A DNA stretch of 52,721 nucleotides from an uncultured bacterium (lineage in GTDB: Bacteria; Calescibacteriota; Calescibacteriia; Calescibacteriales; Calescibacteriaceae). The stretch lies in NCBI GenBank assembly GCA_938036315.1, contig CALHPK010000003.1, forward strand, positions 1 to 52,721, written 5' to 3'. The notes beneath the pieces were generated by a model that was not told the DNA's origin, searched no databases, and was given only the letters and a program-made list of their open reading frames with translations. Shown one piece after another: positions 45,699-52,666 of this stretch; position 1 is the first letter of the stretch; every line of letters starts with the position of its first letter. The position numbers were made by a program, and so were the translations under genes.

Positions 45699-47027
45699 TT
45701 ATCCTTTAATTTCAAATCCCAAAAGGAAGAATTTTCTATGATTTATGATATTTTCAACGCCTCCGTAAAACTTGAAGAATCTGTACCTTCCTCCAATAAG
45801 TCCCCTTAGGTTTGGTTCTGAAAAGCCGATGTTTTCTCCTCTGATGAAGAGAAAATCAAAGGGACTTAACTCGAGCAGAAAAGACGGCTGACTCCTTAGA
45901 AAACCCACACCTATACCAAGACCAGAAAGTGGGTAAACCCCTAAGATAGAGTTAAACCTTAAGGATTCGATATCTGGAGGAGAAACTATCCCGAGCTCAA
46001 GGAAAGCTTTATTCTTCCTGAAAGAAGCAAATAGTGTAGGAGAAAATGCCATTGTTGGAGCGGTATGAACTGCAACTTCCTCCCCCGGCTGAAGTATGCC
46101 CCCTTCAAGTCTCGCACCAACATCAATTGATCCCACTCCTTCCACTATCTTCTCCGCCCCCACCAAAATATTGTCAGCTTTGCTCAGACTCATGCTTACT
46201 CTTTGCGAAATCTCTTCAAATCCCCTTATAGTTTCTCTAAGCTTATTACCATCCTCTCCAGCTAAAGATAAGAATCCATCTTTTTCAACAACTTCCAGAA
46301 GATTCTTCAATTTAAAAGACGCTTCTTTGACATTTTTTGATGTCTCTGTAATATCTTTTGAAAATTCACCTAAAGCTGGATTAATCTCCTTTACTATGCT
46401 CTCAACATCGTGTAAGACATCCCGAATGTCTCTAACGAAATAATTAATTTCCATTATCGTTTTATCGAGATTTCTTGCAGAACTCCCAATAGAACTTGCA
46501 ATTTTTTCTTCTCTTATCTCAATTATGAACTCATTTATGTTATTGAGCAGTATTTTTAAAGAATCGGCAACTTCTGAGAATTTTACGAGTACCTCAGCCG
46601 CCCCTTCTGAAAGCTTACCTATTCCTCCCTCTTCCTCCCCGATGATTATGATATCTCCATCTTTGAGGTACTCTGAACTTTTACCCTGTCTGAAGGCAAT
46701 GATTCTATCTCCCAAAATTCCTTTCATTCTGAATTCAACTTTTGCATCTTTGGTAATTTTTACTCCCATTTTGATATCTGCCGTTATTATAGCTCTCAAT
46801 CCATCCTCTGAAAGCTGAATCTTCGAAACTTTTCCTATCTGAACTCCACTCAGGACAATGGGGCTACCCACTCCCAACCCCTCCGCGGATGGCGCTACTA
46901 TTTTAAGAGAATAACCAGAAAGTTCCCCAACTTTTAAAATTACCTTGACTATAAAAAAAACAATACCACTGGATATCAATAAAAATACTAAAGAAGCTAT
47001 AAAAGACCTCTTTGGAAACTCAAACAT
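45699..47027 (-). CDS. MlaD-like MCE-domain protein with long coiled coil and beta-rich C-terminus
   Basis: The product has 442 residues. One membrane helix (~10-30) is followed by an MCE domain (~38-120): the GLGVGSPIVLSGVQIGKVSKIQL block and the GILGDRIIAF strand are typical. Residues ~130-300 are a coiled coil, as in PqiB/MlaD tunnel proteins. The last ~130 residues are beta-rich with barrel-like strands (FSPTLFASFRKNKAFLELGIV, GGRYRFFKFYGGV), an addition not seen in enteric MlaD. MCE proteins carry phospholipids between the membranes, normally with MlaE permease and MlaF ATPase; neither is in the window. GGGG and GAG upstream support the start. Confidence 0.82.
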   Translation of the reverse strand: MFEFPKRSFIASLVFLLISSGIVFFIVKVILKVGELSGYSLKIVAPSAEGLGVGSPIVLSGVQIGKVSKIQLSEDGLRAIITADIKMGVKITKDAKVEFRMKGILGDRIIAFRQGKSSEYLKDGDIIIIGEEEGGIGKLSEGAAEVLVKFSEVADSLKILLNNINEFIIEIREEKIASSIGSSARNLDKTIMEINYFVRDIRDVLHDVESIVKEINPALGEFSKDITETSKNVKEASFKLKNLLEVVEKDGFLSLAGEDGNKLRETIRGFEEISQRVSMSLSKADNILVGAEKIVEGVGSIDVGARLEGGILQPGEEVAVHTAPTMAFSPTLFASFRKNKAFLELGIVSPPDIESLRFNSILGVYPLSGLGIGVGFLRSQPSFLLELSPFDFLFIRGENIGFSEPNLRGLIGGRYRFFKFYGGVENIINHRKFFLLGFEIKG

Positions 47028-48233: not shown

Positions 48234-48989
48234 TTATTCTGCTGTGGGGATATCGACAATTTCTGGCTGAGATGGTAGCGAAAAAGCTCCTGATTCATCC
48301 TCATACCAAACCTTCCAGAAAAATCTAAGTGAGTACTTGTTGAGCGTCATAGCTTCCGGGAAAAACTTATTTTCCTTTACTTTTATATAGAAGATTGGCT
48401 TGAGAAAATCTCTGTCTAAAGCAAATTCTAACATATAGTGTACTGACTCATTTCCCCGCTCCCAAAAGAATATAGGGATATAGAGCTTTTGCCCTGCCCT
48501 CGGAAATACAAGCTGAACGGACTTTTTCATCATATAAATGTATCCTTCAGCTGGAACGAACCCCTGTCCTTTTTTTATCTTTATCCCATCAGCTTTTACT
48601 TCGCCATCCAATACTTCTACTCTCAGCTTCTCATTGCTAATTCTCAACAGAACTTTAGAATTCTCAATTATAAATGTCTTACCCCTGACAAATTCAAAAA
48701 CACAATTATCAGAGTACAAAAGTACTGTTCCGCTAAAATTATCTAATATTACATAAGGCTTTCCAATATAGATGAAAGCAGATTTGAATTTAACTGAACT
48801 TTGGGGATATAACTTAATCACACAACTACCATATATAGATGGAAAGGAAATAACCGTTACTCCTTCATCGACTGAAACTCCCTTTGGATATTCGGAGAAA
48901 TTTCCATATGAAAAATAGACATTGTAATCAATTTTCTTTTTGCAACTAAAAGAAATAAATACAAATATGAGAGGAACGATCTTTTTCAT
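48234..48989 (-). CDS. FecR-like lipoprotein
   Basis: The product has 251 residues. The signal peptide ends in a lipobox (FISFSC, Cys 16), so it is a lipoprotein. Residues ~40-150 form a FecR-type beta solenoid (LRVEVLDGEVKADGIKIKKGQGFVPAEG is the family's closing strand pattern). Residues ~165-245 form a FnIII-like domain with the common Y-x-L-E-x-A-x-D-x-x-F motif (YMLEFALDRDFLKPI) and FFWKVWYED. Such proteins are widespread in Myxococcota-like genomes. The ATG overlaps the end of the 1226-residue gene as ATGA (4 bases), so the pair is translationally coupled. The stop is doubled (TAATAA). Confidence 0.72.
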   Translation of the reverse strand: MKKIVPLIFVFISFSCKKKIDYNVYFSYGNFSEYPKGVSVDEGVTVISFPSIYGSCVIKLYPQSSVKFKSAFIYIGKPYVILDNFSGTVLLYSDNCVFEFVRGKTFIIENSKVLLRISNEKLRVEVLDGEVKADGIKIKKGQGFVPAEGYIYMMKKSVQLVFPRAGQKLYIPIFFWERGNESVHYMLEFALDRDFLKPIFYIKVKENKFFPEAMTLNKYSLRFFWKVWYEDESGAFSLPSQPEIVDIPTAE

Positions 48990-51900
48990 TTTTTAAAGAA
49001 GACCTTAATCTCAACTCTTCTATTCCTGAACTTTAAAGAATCATCTGATGTTTCTTCAATTGGGAAGGAATCTCCATATCCCACTATCTTGAATGGGAAT
49101 ATTACTCCTTTGTTGATTAGGAATTTCCTTACAGACTCAGCACGCTGGTAAGATAACTCAATATTCCACAAAAACTTACCTATATCATCAGTATGCCCCT
49201 CGATTATTATCTCAGATATATTTTCAATATTATTTTTTATAAATTTCACTGCATCCTCTAAATCCACATATTTTTGCGGCGGAATAGATGCAGAACCGAG
49301 CTGGAAGGAATCTATAACTTTTTTAAAAACTATGTTTCCCTCGGCTGAGTAAATGCTAAAAGGCCTAACCGGGAATGATTTCCTAAGTTCTTCATCTACC
49401 TTTGCTAAATCTCCTGAACTGAAACTACTACTAAGCTTCTCTCTACGCTGTATCATTTTTTTAGATAAATCCTTTTCATTTTCGTCTTCGCTTAACTTGC
49501 TCGGCTTATATTCCTTGCCTTCTTCGATGTCTTGTCTTTCACCCTCTGACTCAACGGCAAAAGTTTTCTCAGTTGGTCCGCTTATCTTTTCTGATTTGGC
49601 ACTCTCATTTGACATAGTGTCTTTTTTCTCCTCAATTTTCGTCCAGCCCTGAGTACTCCGCCCGATTCCTAACCACAAAGCGAAACCATCGGAAACATTC
49701 ACTGTGCGCGAAAGCTCACTGACTCTGATCTCGTATTCTTTACTTCCTTCAAGTGTAACATAATAGGCTGAAATATTGAAAGTTTTCCCATCAAAAGATA
49801 TACTCATATCTTGCTCAATAGGAACCCCGCTTCCATCTGATGAATAAAGAACGAGAAGAGAAGATGATCTGCGAACTCTCACTTGTAAGTCCGGATCAGC
49901 AGGAGATACCCAAATCTTCTGGTTCATAAAACCGTCACAAATAAAACTTGCCTCATAAAAACCATAAGGAAGTTTCAGCTCAAATATTCCATCCTTTGCT
50001 TTGTAAGACAAAAAAAGTTTTTCAATAATTATGTTGCAACTTGAAACCTGATTTCCAAACTCATCCACTATTTTCCCTCTCAATTTGAAATACTTGATGT
50101 TATGATTACTTCGAGGATTAAAATTCAATCCAGCTGAGAACATAATTCTAAAATCTGCAGAGCCTAGTCCACCTATAATCCCTTTGCTTCCCCCCACTTT
50201 CAAGAATATATCTTCTAAATCAACCCCGGCTAACAAAGATGCCTCACTTGCTACAAATCCTCTTTTTACAGCTATAGGGAGAAAAGAAAAATTCTCAAGA
50301 GAAAGGAAAAACATTCGAGAAATACTCAGGGTATGTCCGAGTGAAATCAGTAATCTAAAGGGAATGTCCTTACCCCCATAAATAACCCCCGAATTAATAG
50401 ATGTCTGACCTTTAGATATAATGAGGATAGCCCCACCAGAAAAAGGAGTACTTTCCAAATATCTTTTATTTCCAGTTGGGAGACCTAAAAACAATTCAGA
50501 ACCAATCTCATATCTTCCAGCATTACCAATCAACCCTTTCATACCTAAGAAAGTATCCATCAGATGAAGACCTGAATACTCTCCACGAGTATAAGCCATT
50601 GCAGGTAAAAGGTAAAACTCCGTTGAGTTATTTAGTGAGTATATAAAAGCTGGATTTGACACAATAACGTAGTCAAAAATTTTTCTCCTATAAACTTCTG
50701 AATCAAATTTGTAAGCAGTTTCAAACAGCGGAGAATACAGATATGAGCTGATAAATCCGAACTTAAAATTTCCCTCAGGGGAAGTTTGAATTGATCTTAC
50801 AAAGAAGAATTTGTCATAAGAATTTGGTAAGCTTACTATGCTAAATGTGTATCCATAATCGTGTAAAAAAGTTATTACTATGATAATTATCAATAATTTT
50901 GTCAATTTTCTGAGAACCACCAATAATAATATAAGGATAAAAGCCCCAGCAAGTGCGTACAAATGTTGAAGCTCTACTGATATACATCCCCCGCCCCTGT
51001 AAACAATCTCCGGAACTTTGGATCTCCCATACAATATCAGAGTGATTTCTCGATTCGATGGGTCATCAGACAGAATTTTGAGAACCCCCCGAATTTCTCC
51101 CGATTTTCCATTCGGGACAAAAGAAACTTTAATAGGATATGCTCCCCCAGGCGGAATGCTCACAATCTCATCAGATAGTATAAAATTTTCTGAATCAACA
51201 TAAAAGTTAGCATTGAGAGTAACTGTTCCGGTATTCTCCACAGAAAAAGATCGAGAAGAAGAATCATCTGACCAAACATCTCCAAAATCAATAGTTTGTT
51301 CTGCTTTAGAGAGCTTGATGCGAGGATATCCTCCCGCCCCATACAACTTTACCTCAAATATCTTAGATTCCACATTTCTGTACTCATCGAATGAAAAGTT
51401 AGACGAATTCGGAACTACAAAATATAACCTCAAAACAGCGGAATACTCCGTCACATCTTGGGGACTAAAAACCAGAGGGATGGTCACTGGACTTTCATAC
51501 AAGATAATACGAGGTAGCTCAAAATTTAGTGTCAAATTGAAAACCTGATCACCTGAGAGAGATATCTGAGAAATCATAACAGGGAACAAACCAGAATTTA
51601 CGATTGATAGATCTTTTTTGCTCTGATAATAAACTCTTATTCTTTCAAAATTTATACTTTCTGGAACAGATATATTGGGTTTTGATGCTTTGCCAGAGAC
51701 AGAAACTTTCACATAGGTTTTATCTGGATCGTTCGATTCTATATTGATATATGACTGGAAAGACCCTTCCTTCTCTGGTATGAAGAATAATTGAAATTCT
51801 AACTTCTTCATAGGTTCTACAACAAAAGGGAACGTTATCGACTCAATGTAAAAAGCCTGCGATTCAGAACTGATTCTTTTTATAATGAGATTCTCCGCTC

Positions 51901-52666
51901 CGACATTGGAAATAACAAAGCTAAATCTTGACGACTCATTTGGGAATATAGTCCCGAAATCTATTACCGTATTTTGCAGATACAATGACGGAAAAGGGTT
52001 TTTGACACCATACCCCACAGCTGAAATCTTCAGCTCTCCGATGTTTGAAAAGAAAGTTATACTACCTGAGAAATTTCCTTCGGAAGATGGCGTGAATATC
52101 ACGGGCACGAAGAATTTAGATTCAGCATCGACTCTGAAGTTAGTGATTGTGATAAAAAATGGAGATACAAAATAAGTCTGAGTTACAATGAGAGGGAATT
52201 TTCCGAAATTCTCAATCTGAACAAAAATAGTTTTGCTTTTGCCAACAAGAGTCCCCCCAAAATCAATGTTTGATGGGAGCGAGGGAATTGGCGAAGCCCA
52301 CACTCCAGAAATAGTAATAGAAAGCGTATAGCTATCAGAACCACTTCGTAAATTTATAGCTAAATTGTAAGTGAATTCTGAATTCAAAGCTTTAGACTGC
52401 ACAACAATTTTACTTGAACACCTGATTGAGCTTAATTGAGGAACATAATTTAGCTCACAGCTTATGTTCTGATTCTCCACTGTGAATGTGGCTGAGCTAG
52501 AAAAATTTATAATCGTGAAATCAATCTTAGGATCATCCTGAATAAATACATATCCAAGATTTATAATTTCTGGATCAACTTTAATGTTGCTCGAAAAGAC
52601 ATTTTTGTTGTATGATAGTATCAAGAGTGCTCCAATTATCGTAAAGATACTTAACTTCTTCACCAT
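48986..52666 (-). CDS. 1226-residue composite: Hydin-type repeats with sorting tail, fused in frame to an OmpA-family barrel protein
   Basis: Residues 1-24 are a signal peptide. About 30-555 carry repeated Hydin/ASPM/choice-of-anchor-D Ig domains (IDFGGTLVGKS, VIDFGTIFPNES, TIDFGDVWSDDS; SNDPDKT and SDDPSNR at domain ends). Then RGGGC (Cys 561), a helix (~570-585) and RKLTK form a complete C-terminal sorting tail. Without a stop this runs into LLIIIIVITFLHDYGYTF (591-608), a signal-peptide-like segment, then a beta-barrel (~610-880), a carboxypeptidase-regulatory-like domain (~885-990), an acidic linker and a C-terminal OmpA domain (IIEGHTDDIGKF, RAESVRKFL, NRRVEI) that binds peptidoglycan. 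GTG (codon 583) and TTG (588) could start a separate OmpA-type product. The gene overlaps the FecR-like gene downstream. Confidence 0.78.
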   Translation of the reverse strand: MVKKLSIFTIIGALLILSYNKNVFSSNIKVDPEIINLGYVFIQDDPKIDFTIINFSSSATFTVENQNISCELNYVPQLSSIRCSSKIVVQSKALNSEFTYNLAINLRSGSDSYTLSITISGVWASPIPSLPSNIDFGGTLVGKSKTIFVQIENFGKFPLIVTQTYFVSPFFITITNFRVDAESKFFVPVIFTPSSEGNFSGSITFFSNIGELKISAVGYGVKNPFPSLYLQNTVIDFGTIFPNESSRFSFVISNVGAENLIIKRISSESQAFYIESITFPFVVEPMKKLEFQLFFIPEKEGSFQSYINIESNDPDKTYVKVSVSGKASKPNISVPESINFERIRVYYQSKKDLSIVNSGLFPVMISQISLSGDQVFNLTLNFELPRIILYESPVTIPLVFSPQDVTEYSAVLRLYFVVPNSSNFSFDEYRNVESKIFEVKLYGAGGYPRIKLSKAEQTIDFGDVWSDDSSSRSFSVENTGTVTLNANFYVDSENFILSDEIVSIPPGGAYPIKVSFVPNGKSGEIRGVLKILSDDPSNREITLILYGRSKVPEIVYRGGGCISVELQHLYALAGAFILILLLVVLRKLTKLLIIIIVITFLHDYGYTFSIVSLPNSYDKFFFVRSIQTSPEGNFKFGFISSYLYSPLFETAYKFDSEVYRRKIFDYVIVSNPAFIYSLNNSTEFYLLPAMAYTRGEYSGLHLMDTFLGMKGLIGNAGRYEIGSELFLGLPTGNKRYLESTPFSGGAILIISKGQTSINSGVIYGGKDIPFRLLISLGHTLSISRMFFLSLENFSFLPIAVKRGFVASEASLLAGVDLEDIFLKVGGSKGIIGGLGSADFRIMFSAGLNFNPRSNHNIKYFKLRGKIVDEFGNQVSSCNIIIEKLFLSYKAKDGIFELKLPYGFYEASFICDGFMNQKIWVSPADPDLQVRVRRSSSLLVLYSSDGSGVPIEQDMSISFDGKTFNISAYYVTLEGSKEYEIRVSELSRTVNVSDGFALWLGIGRSTQGWTKIEEKKDTMSNESAKSEKISGPTEKTFAVESEGERQDIEEGKEYKPSKLSEDENEKDLSKKMIQRREKLSSSFSSGDLAKVDEELRKSFPVRPFSIYSAEGNIVFKKVIDSFQLGSASIPPQKYVDLEDAVKFIKNNIENISEIIIEGHTDDIGKFLWNIELSYQRAESVRKFLINKGVIFPFKIVGYGDSFPIEETSDDSLKFRNRRVEIKVFFKK

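Follow-up and report, generated by a model that had tools for sequence, protein, structure and literature searches.

C-terminal sorting tails are usually taken as the end of a protein. In a gene from Calescibacterota, an uncultivated thermophile (hot-spring) phylum, and in genes from at least three other phyla, such a tail lies mid-protein. The window, which is the whole 52,721-nucleotide stretch of DNA analyzed here, carries this gene with the tail running straight into a signal-peptide-like segment and a predicted outer-membrane barrel. Does the gene make one protein or two, and how would two be separated? Probably a single gene yields a pair of envelope proteins, whose tail and second export signal can both be overlooked in annotation.

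An internal sorting-type tail abuts a signal-peptide-like segment

The preliminary description, made from the letters of the DNA, had reported a frame that is unbroken across the junction. This is the case: the frame at 48986..52666 runs without an internal stop from Cys561 through to the OmpA domain. Its features and the gene behind it are as follows.

48986..52666, minus strand: whole open reading frame with an ATG start, predicted 1226-aa precursor (surface-type Hydin/ASH half plus barrel/OmpA half)
52592..52666, minus strand: first signal peptide, residues 1-25, predicted from sequence and hydrophobicity
50999..52591, minus strand: first half, Hydin/ASH Ig-like repeats of the 'choice-of-anchor D' type (NF012200)
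50897..50995, minus strand: internal sorting-type tail, with GGGC (Cys561), helix 569-585 and basic end RKLTK 586-590
50984..50986, minus strand: codon of Cys561, an invariant residue and a candidate for lipidation/cleavage
50843..50911, minus strand: internal signal-peptide-like segment, residues 586-608, predicted cleavage near 607-609
50114..50842, minus strand: predicted 12-stranded outer-membrane beta-barrel, residues 609-851 (AlphaFold2 model, structure match, hhalign)
49661..50095, minus strand: predicted beta-rich domains like carboxypeptidase-regulatory domains, residues 858-1002 (AlphaFold2 model)
49019..49306, minus strand: OmpA peptidoglycan-binding domain, residues 1121-1216 (PF00691, 5.3e-14)
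48234..48989, minus strand: downstream gene, 251 aa, probable lipoprotein, overlapping the end of the precursor gene

The first half is matched by Pfam models (PF22544, 1.1e-23; PF15780, 4.4e-21) and, in four stretches, by the NCBIfam model choice_anch_D (1.3e-32). 'Choice-of-anchor D' is a domain name for proteins that bear one of several C-terminal anchors. The junction itself reads VYRGGGC(561)ISVELQHLYALAGAFILILLLVVL-RKLTK-LLIIIIVITFLHDYGYTFS(609)IVSLPN. A hydrophobicity scan picked up both the tail helix and the second hydrophobic segment, in line with the earlier reading. RKLTK is common to the two elements, being the basic end of the tail and the n-region of the internal segment, whose h-region is LLIIIIVITFL. 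The tail is not at a C-terminus, as 636 residues follow RKLTK.

The tail had been called MYXO/JDVT-CTERM-like. The tripartite form holds (invariant Cys, helix, basic end), but the family model does not recognize it. TIGR03901 (MYXO-CTERM) gave no matches in the genome of the window (G000) at E<=5 and none over its 20-bit cut-off in five genomes of the phylum. As a search for further substrates, the same model returned two sub-threshold matches only, both C-terminal tails of an orthologous pair in G001 and G003.

The layout is conserved in the phylum

An ortholog (A-type) is present in one continuous frame in all five genomes compared from the phylum, the four others being 34-36% identical. In these four the succession of elements is unchanged: Gly-x-Gly-Cys, helix, basic loop, second hydrophobic segment, signal peptidase-type site and barrel. 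A paralog of 2245-2674 aa (B-type) repeats the layout in four of the five genomes, with more typical tails in G003 and G001 (GGGCSCSSSSP-helix-RRKK). Since the same order recurs without a stop in all four other genomes and in a paralog family, the layout is more than chance. In one B-type gene, L031 (G000:C1, 3293-10036), the 2248-aa product has numerous Hydin repeats and a GGGCSCS tail ahead of an internal signal peptide (ASA|D) and the barrel/OmpA half.

Across the nine A- and B-type sequences aligned at the junction, Gly-x-Gly-Cys is invariant and the loop holds several Lys/Arg. Eight have a small residue just ahead of the predicted cut (ALS, SYS, SWA, SLA, ASA, AYS, LYS, LYS), the first five of these sites being clear; outside the phylum the sites are AxA. 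The site in the window is marginal and the weakest of the set, with a small residue only if the cut shifts one residue either way (GYT|F or TFS|I).

In sister genomes, tails of this type are also found at genuine C-termini: VGVLGCSASAGFSGFG-helix-IRRRVE* (G001, G003), GVAGCSCSS...RIKKRKA* (G004) and RACSCSSG (G003). The motif therefore does serve as a protein end in this phylum. A DNA pattern for Gly-Cys-Ser-Cys tails gave mostly chance matches, the real ones being three B-type genes and one standalone G004 tail. In G000, limited pattern and model searches found no standalone tail protein.

The second half resembles TraB-like barrel proteins

An AlphaFold2 model built from five orthologs has a mean pLDDT of 64, with most barrel blocks at 59-87. 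It places 12 strands at residues 26-240 after the cut, followed by the beta domains, a low-confidence linker and the OmpA domain. PF13620 (carboxypeptidase-regulatory) matches paralogs below its cut-off. Against solved structures, the barrel is closest to FapF (Z 22.0, 2.5 A, 211 residues) and a COG4313 channel (Z 21.4), while the last domain matches Pal/OmpA-C folds (Z about 16). PF00691 scores 52.8 bits on the window frame, above its gathering cut-off of 27.2. The second half had been described as an OmpA-type barrel. An OmpA peptidoglycan-binding domain does stand at its end, but the barrel is 12-stranded and FapF/COG4313-like, not the 8-stranded barrel of OmpA. This likeness is one of predicted fold; identity is 10-13%, and a shared function is not implied.

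Barrels of autotransporters were also considered. Those of NalP and EspP score Z about 19, but passenger transit would not agree with the two strongly hydrophobic helices that precede the barrel, and this candidate was rejected.

Profile comparison by hhalign links the second half to TraB-like barrels of other genomes (99.3%, P 1.9e-20, 245-250 columns) and, at 82%, to the TraB pair alone. The TraB model NF033763 scores 38 bits on the window frame, over the OmpA domain only, with a cut-off of 700. The order signal peptide, barrel and OmpA domain is that of TraB, with a homologous barrel. By these results, TraB is a remote relative of the second half. Homologous barrels elsewhere have an ordinary N-terminal signal peptide at the place of the internal one. 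L077, part of an 896-aa fusion in G182, gives a match to the TraB model that spans residues 2-499, and its internal signal peptide coincides with TraB's own N-terminus.

The layout recurs in other phyla

A profile of the Calescibacterota barrel was used as the search query, and the layout was found in unrelated genomes. Myxococcota contain 16 such frames of 1269-3723 aa (L127-L143; lengths are stop to stop and some are cut by a contig end). L144 was left out, as its barrel stands alone and its long frame is due to chance. The Myxococcota tails are MYXO-CTERM-like, for example GRGCSTGGAG-helix-GRRRR, and lead straight into a canonical signal peptide and a TraB-like barrel. Their signal peptidase sites are A-x-A|Q (AHA|Q, AEA|Q, ADA|Q), with one SQA|Q.

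The layout was also found in the phylum of G182 (ALA|F; five genomes compared) and the phylum of G265 (ASA|V; 35 genomes compared). The full member lists of these phyla show no overlap with Myxococcota or Calescibacterota, so they are distinct from both. The G265 tail is of the CFI-box-CTERM type (NF041770, 4.6e-28). A further example, L205 (G291:C369), is an 8019-aa frame with a GDC-helix-DRRRRG tail, a signal peptide (AHA|Q) and a TraB-like barrel. The layout thus occurs in at least four phyla, that of Calescibacterium included.

Split and fused forms occur side by side

The preliminary description had proposed looking for the two halves as separate adjacent genes, and this check was positive. 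In L159 and L160 (traA-traB), L147 and L163, a gene ending in a tail is directly followed by a TraB-like gene, and the G265 phylum has such pairs too. The traA and traB genes overlap by four bases (PMC3325183), and an overlap of this type is seen in L159 and L160.

In the G265 phylum the fusion is present in seven genomes. Within one genus, g406, G535, G536 and G539 have two overlapping genes whereas G538 and G541 have an in-frame fusion. In L219 (G539) and L220 (G535) the AGG AGG codons of the tail (Arg-Arg) double as the Shine-Dalgarno sequence of the overlapping downstream ATG. The G538 fusion retains both AGGAGG and an in-frame ATG, G541 retains the ATG with an eroded site, and the loop lacks an ATG in the fusions of G265, G533, G552, G561 and G549. 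From the sequences, we read this series as a path that putatively runs from an overlapping pair to an obligate fusion. Through this series a surface protein is tied to its barrel partner, and since a single genus has both states, the idea can be put to a direct test.

A quick tree of 48 second halves implies a minimum of six changes for the fused state, two of them forced by branches with strong support; sampling favored fusions, so no frequencies are to be read from this tree. We tentatively suggest, as a conjecture that could well prove wrong, that envelope polyproteins joining a sorting-tailed surface protein to a barrel partner form a recurrent Gram-negative class. They would arise by small indels in overlapping operon pairs, in which Arg codons of the tail can supply the Shine-Dalgarno of the following gene, and be kept for ordered cutting, by signal peptidase I and then a sorting protease, that yields equal amounts of both partners at one site.

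Relation to MXAN_5598, TraA-TraB and other systems

A related protein is known from Myxococcus xanthus. MXAN_5598 is described as atypical, with an internal MYXO-CTERM, an adhesin-like N-terminus and a barrel/OmpA C-terminus; Guo, Haft and Wall (2025) liken it to a TraA/TraB fusion and propose that its N-terminal part is processed (PMC11980579). The preliminary description had called a polyprotein a new way to deliver paired envelope proteins, which is too strong given this 2025 account. Like the window frame, MXAN_5598 as there described combines a large N-terminal part, an internal Cys-helix-Arg tail, a barrel and an OmpA domain in one frame. Unlike it, MXAN_5598 belongs to another phylum and has other N-terminal domains, these being Hydin/ASH in the window. 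The available text on MXAN_5598 makes no mention of an internal signal peptide, other phyla or a split/fused series (PMC11980579). The fusion idea itself is known; new here are its occurrence in this phylum, the conservation of the internal signal peptide, the recurrence and the series from overlap to fusion.

Mass spectrometry has picked up MXAN_5598 in fractions of vesicles and of membranes (PMC4158809). These fractions fit release to the outer membrane, and do not tell which half was detected. Among the Myxococcota fusions, L132 and L129 have ftsZ close by downstream, as described for MXAN_5598 (PMC11980579), and are probably its orthologs. The N-terminal part of L132 matches the CglD model, not Hydin/ASH. 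L131, L134 and L136 are fused with the same layout and form a clade apart from the ftsZ-linked frames; no ftsZ was found downstream of L134 in the stretch examined. Myxococcota probably have more than one such fusion family.

The traA-traB system for outer membrane exchange in Myxococcota is similarly ordered, with a tail-bearing surface protein, then a signal peptide, barrel and OmpA domain. It differs in having two genes instead of one, and TraA carries PA14 and Cys-rich repeats, not Hydin. Membrane exchange is the function of traA-traB; the likeness of the window protein to this system is one of layout and barrel. Through this comparison, a partnership of the TraA/TraB kind, familiar from outer membrane exchange in myxobacteria, is connected to an uncultivated hot-spring phylum.

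One bacterial gene giving two proteins through a cut at an internal signal peptide has a precedent in the FbcH cytochrome b/c1 precursor of Bradyrhizobium. FbcH differs from the window frame in that its products are respiratory proteins, with neither a sorting tail nor an outer-membrane barrel. A literature search for a published bacterial precedent of an internal signal peptide returned nothing useful.

A probable two-protein precursor and its alternatives

We consider it probable that the gene makes one precursor, which signal peptidase I cuts first and a myxosortase-like protease second, to give two envelope proteins. The first half would be exported by Sec by means of its own signal peptide. 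Transfer would halt at the helix that follows Cys561, leaving the basic RKLTK loop in the cytoplasm. The second hydrophobic segment would then restart export as an internal signal peptide, placing both halves in the periplasm. A cut by signal peptidase I behind this segment would free the barrel/OmpA half for insertion into the outer membrane. The first step is most likely this release by signal peptidase I, because no more than about 25 residues lie between the second segment and the start of the barrel, and an outer-membrane barrel should be unable to stay tied to the inner membrane. The first half would keep a Cys-helix-basic tail of the type that myxosortase trims. Its putative lipidation, trimming and transport to the surface would follow the Myxococcus model (PMC11980579). 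The partners would be produced 1:1, from the fused counterpart of an overlapping pair of the traA-traB type.

We infer both cleavages, the lipidation of Cys561, the surface location and the partnership of the halves, the last of these, with the function of the first half, from their recurring pairing. Of the three explanations first offered for this frame, the polyprotein is the best supported.

Candidate enzymes are present. Each of the five phylum genomes has exactly one Rce1/CPBP protease (PF02517 over cut-off) and one signal peptidase I (LepB), and the type II secretin GspD is over cut-off in all five. The best NCBIfam matches of the protease are Mrt_core/MrtP/MrtC in each of the three genomes whose protease was compared, all under cut-off; that of G000 scores 86.9 bits against Mrt_core (NF040914; cut-off 100). 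The layout in five of five genomes and in paralogs, its recurrence, the split counterparts and these enzymes support a two-protein precursor. Counting against it are a tail outside TIGR03901, a protease below every NCBIfam myxosortase cut-off and, in the window frame, the weakest signal peptidase site. Myxosortase substrates known so far have a free basic tail at the end. The second hydrophobic stub behind the tail would have to be tolerated or trimmed off first.

These same shortfalls of tail and protease would be expected if signal peptidase I freed the barrel while the first half stayed unsorted, with the helix-loop-helix stub as its anchor in the inner membrane and the Cys motif as a relic. 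We regard this as unlikely. Gly-x-Gly-Cys is invariant in A- and B-type paralogs, the Cys is retained in the MYXO-type fusions, and similar tails end proteins in sister genomes.

An internal start was another of the explanations first offered, and codons 583 and 588 are indeed GTG and TTG as claimed. It is very unlikely that either makes the functional barrel protein. Some G265-phylum fusions do retain an in-frame ATG (G538 and G541, above), but five others lack one in the loop. No Shine-Dalgarno precedes GTG583 or TTG588, and no start codon is conserved among the nine Calescibacterota genes. The B-type gene of G001 has none before the h-region, and the A-type gene of G004 has no ATG, GTG or TTG in 85 codons around the junction. 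Upstream ribosomes would make the fusion anyway.

Equally hard to credit is one uncleaved protein that crosses the inner membrane twice and holds both large domains in the periplasm. An even count of hydrophobic segments makes this topology consistent, but the second segment is immediately followed by a predicted outer-membrane barrel, which would then be kept from the outer membrane. In addition, AxA-type sites are conserved from phylum to phylum, and relatives are separate genes.

Assembly error or a recently lost stop codon can be dismissed: the genome is a draft (85% complete), but the same continuous frame is found in four other independently assembled genomes and in both paralog families, and junction substitutions in a close B-type pair fall by codon position as expected for coding DNA in this frame (6/2/16; the A-type count, 12/7/9, is uninformative).

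Neighboring genes

L042 (G000:C6, 1192-1818), the only CPBP/Rce1-like protease gene of its genome, lies directly behind a diacylglycerol-kinase-like gene (260-1192), so named from the appearance of its sequence only. At the precursor locus, an MlaD-domain (MCE) gene lies nearby (45699-47027, minus strand). Of the four other phylum genomes, three have a homologue of the 251-aa lipoprotein gene (38-39% identical) directly after the ortholog, and this gene and the precursor gene likely form one operon.
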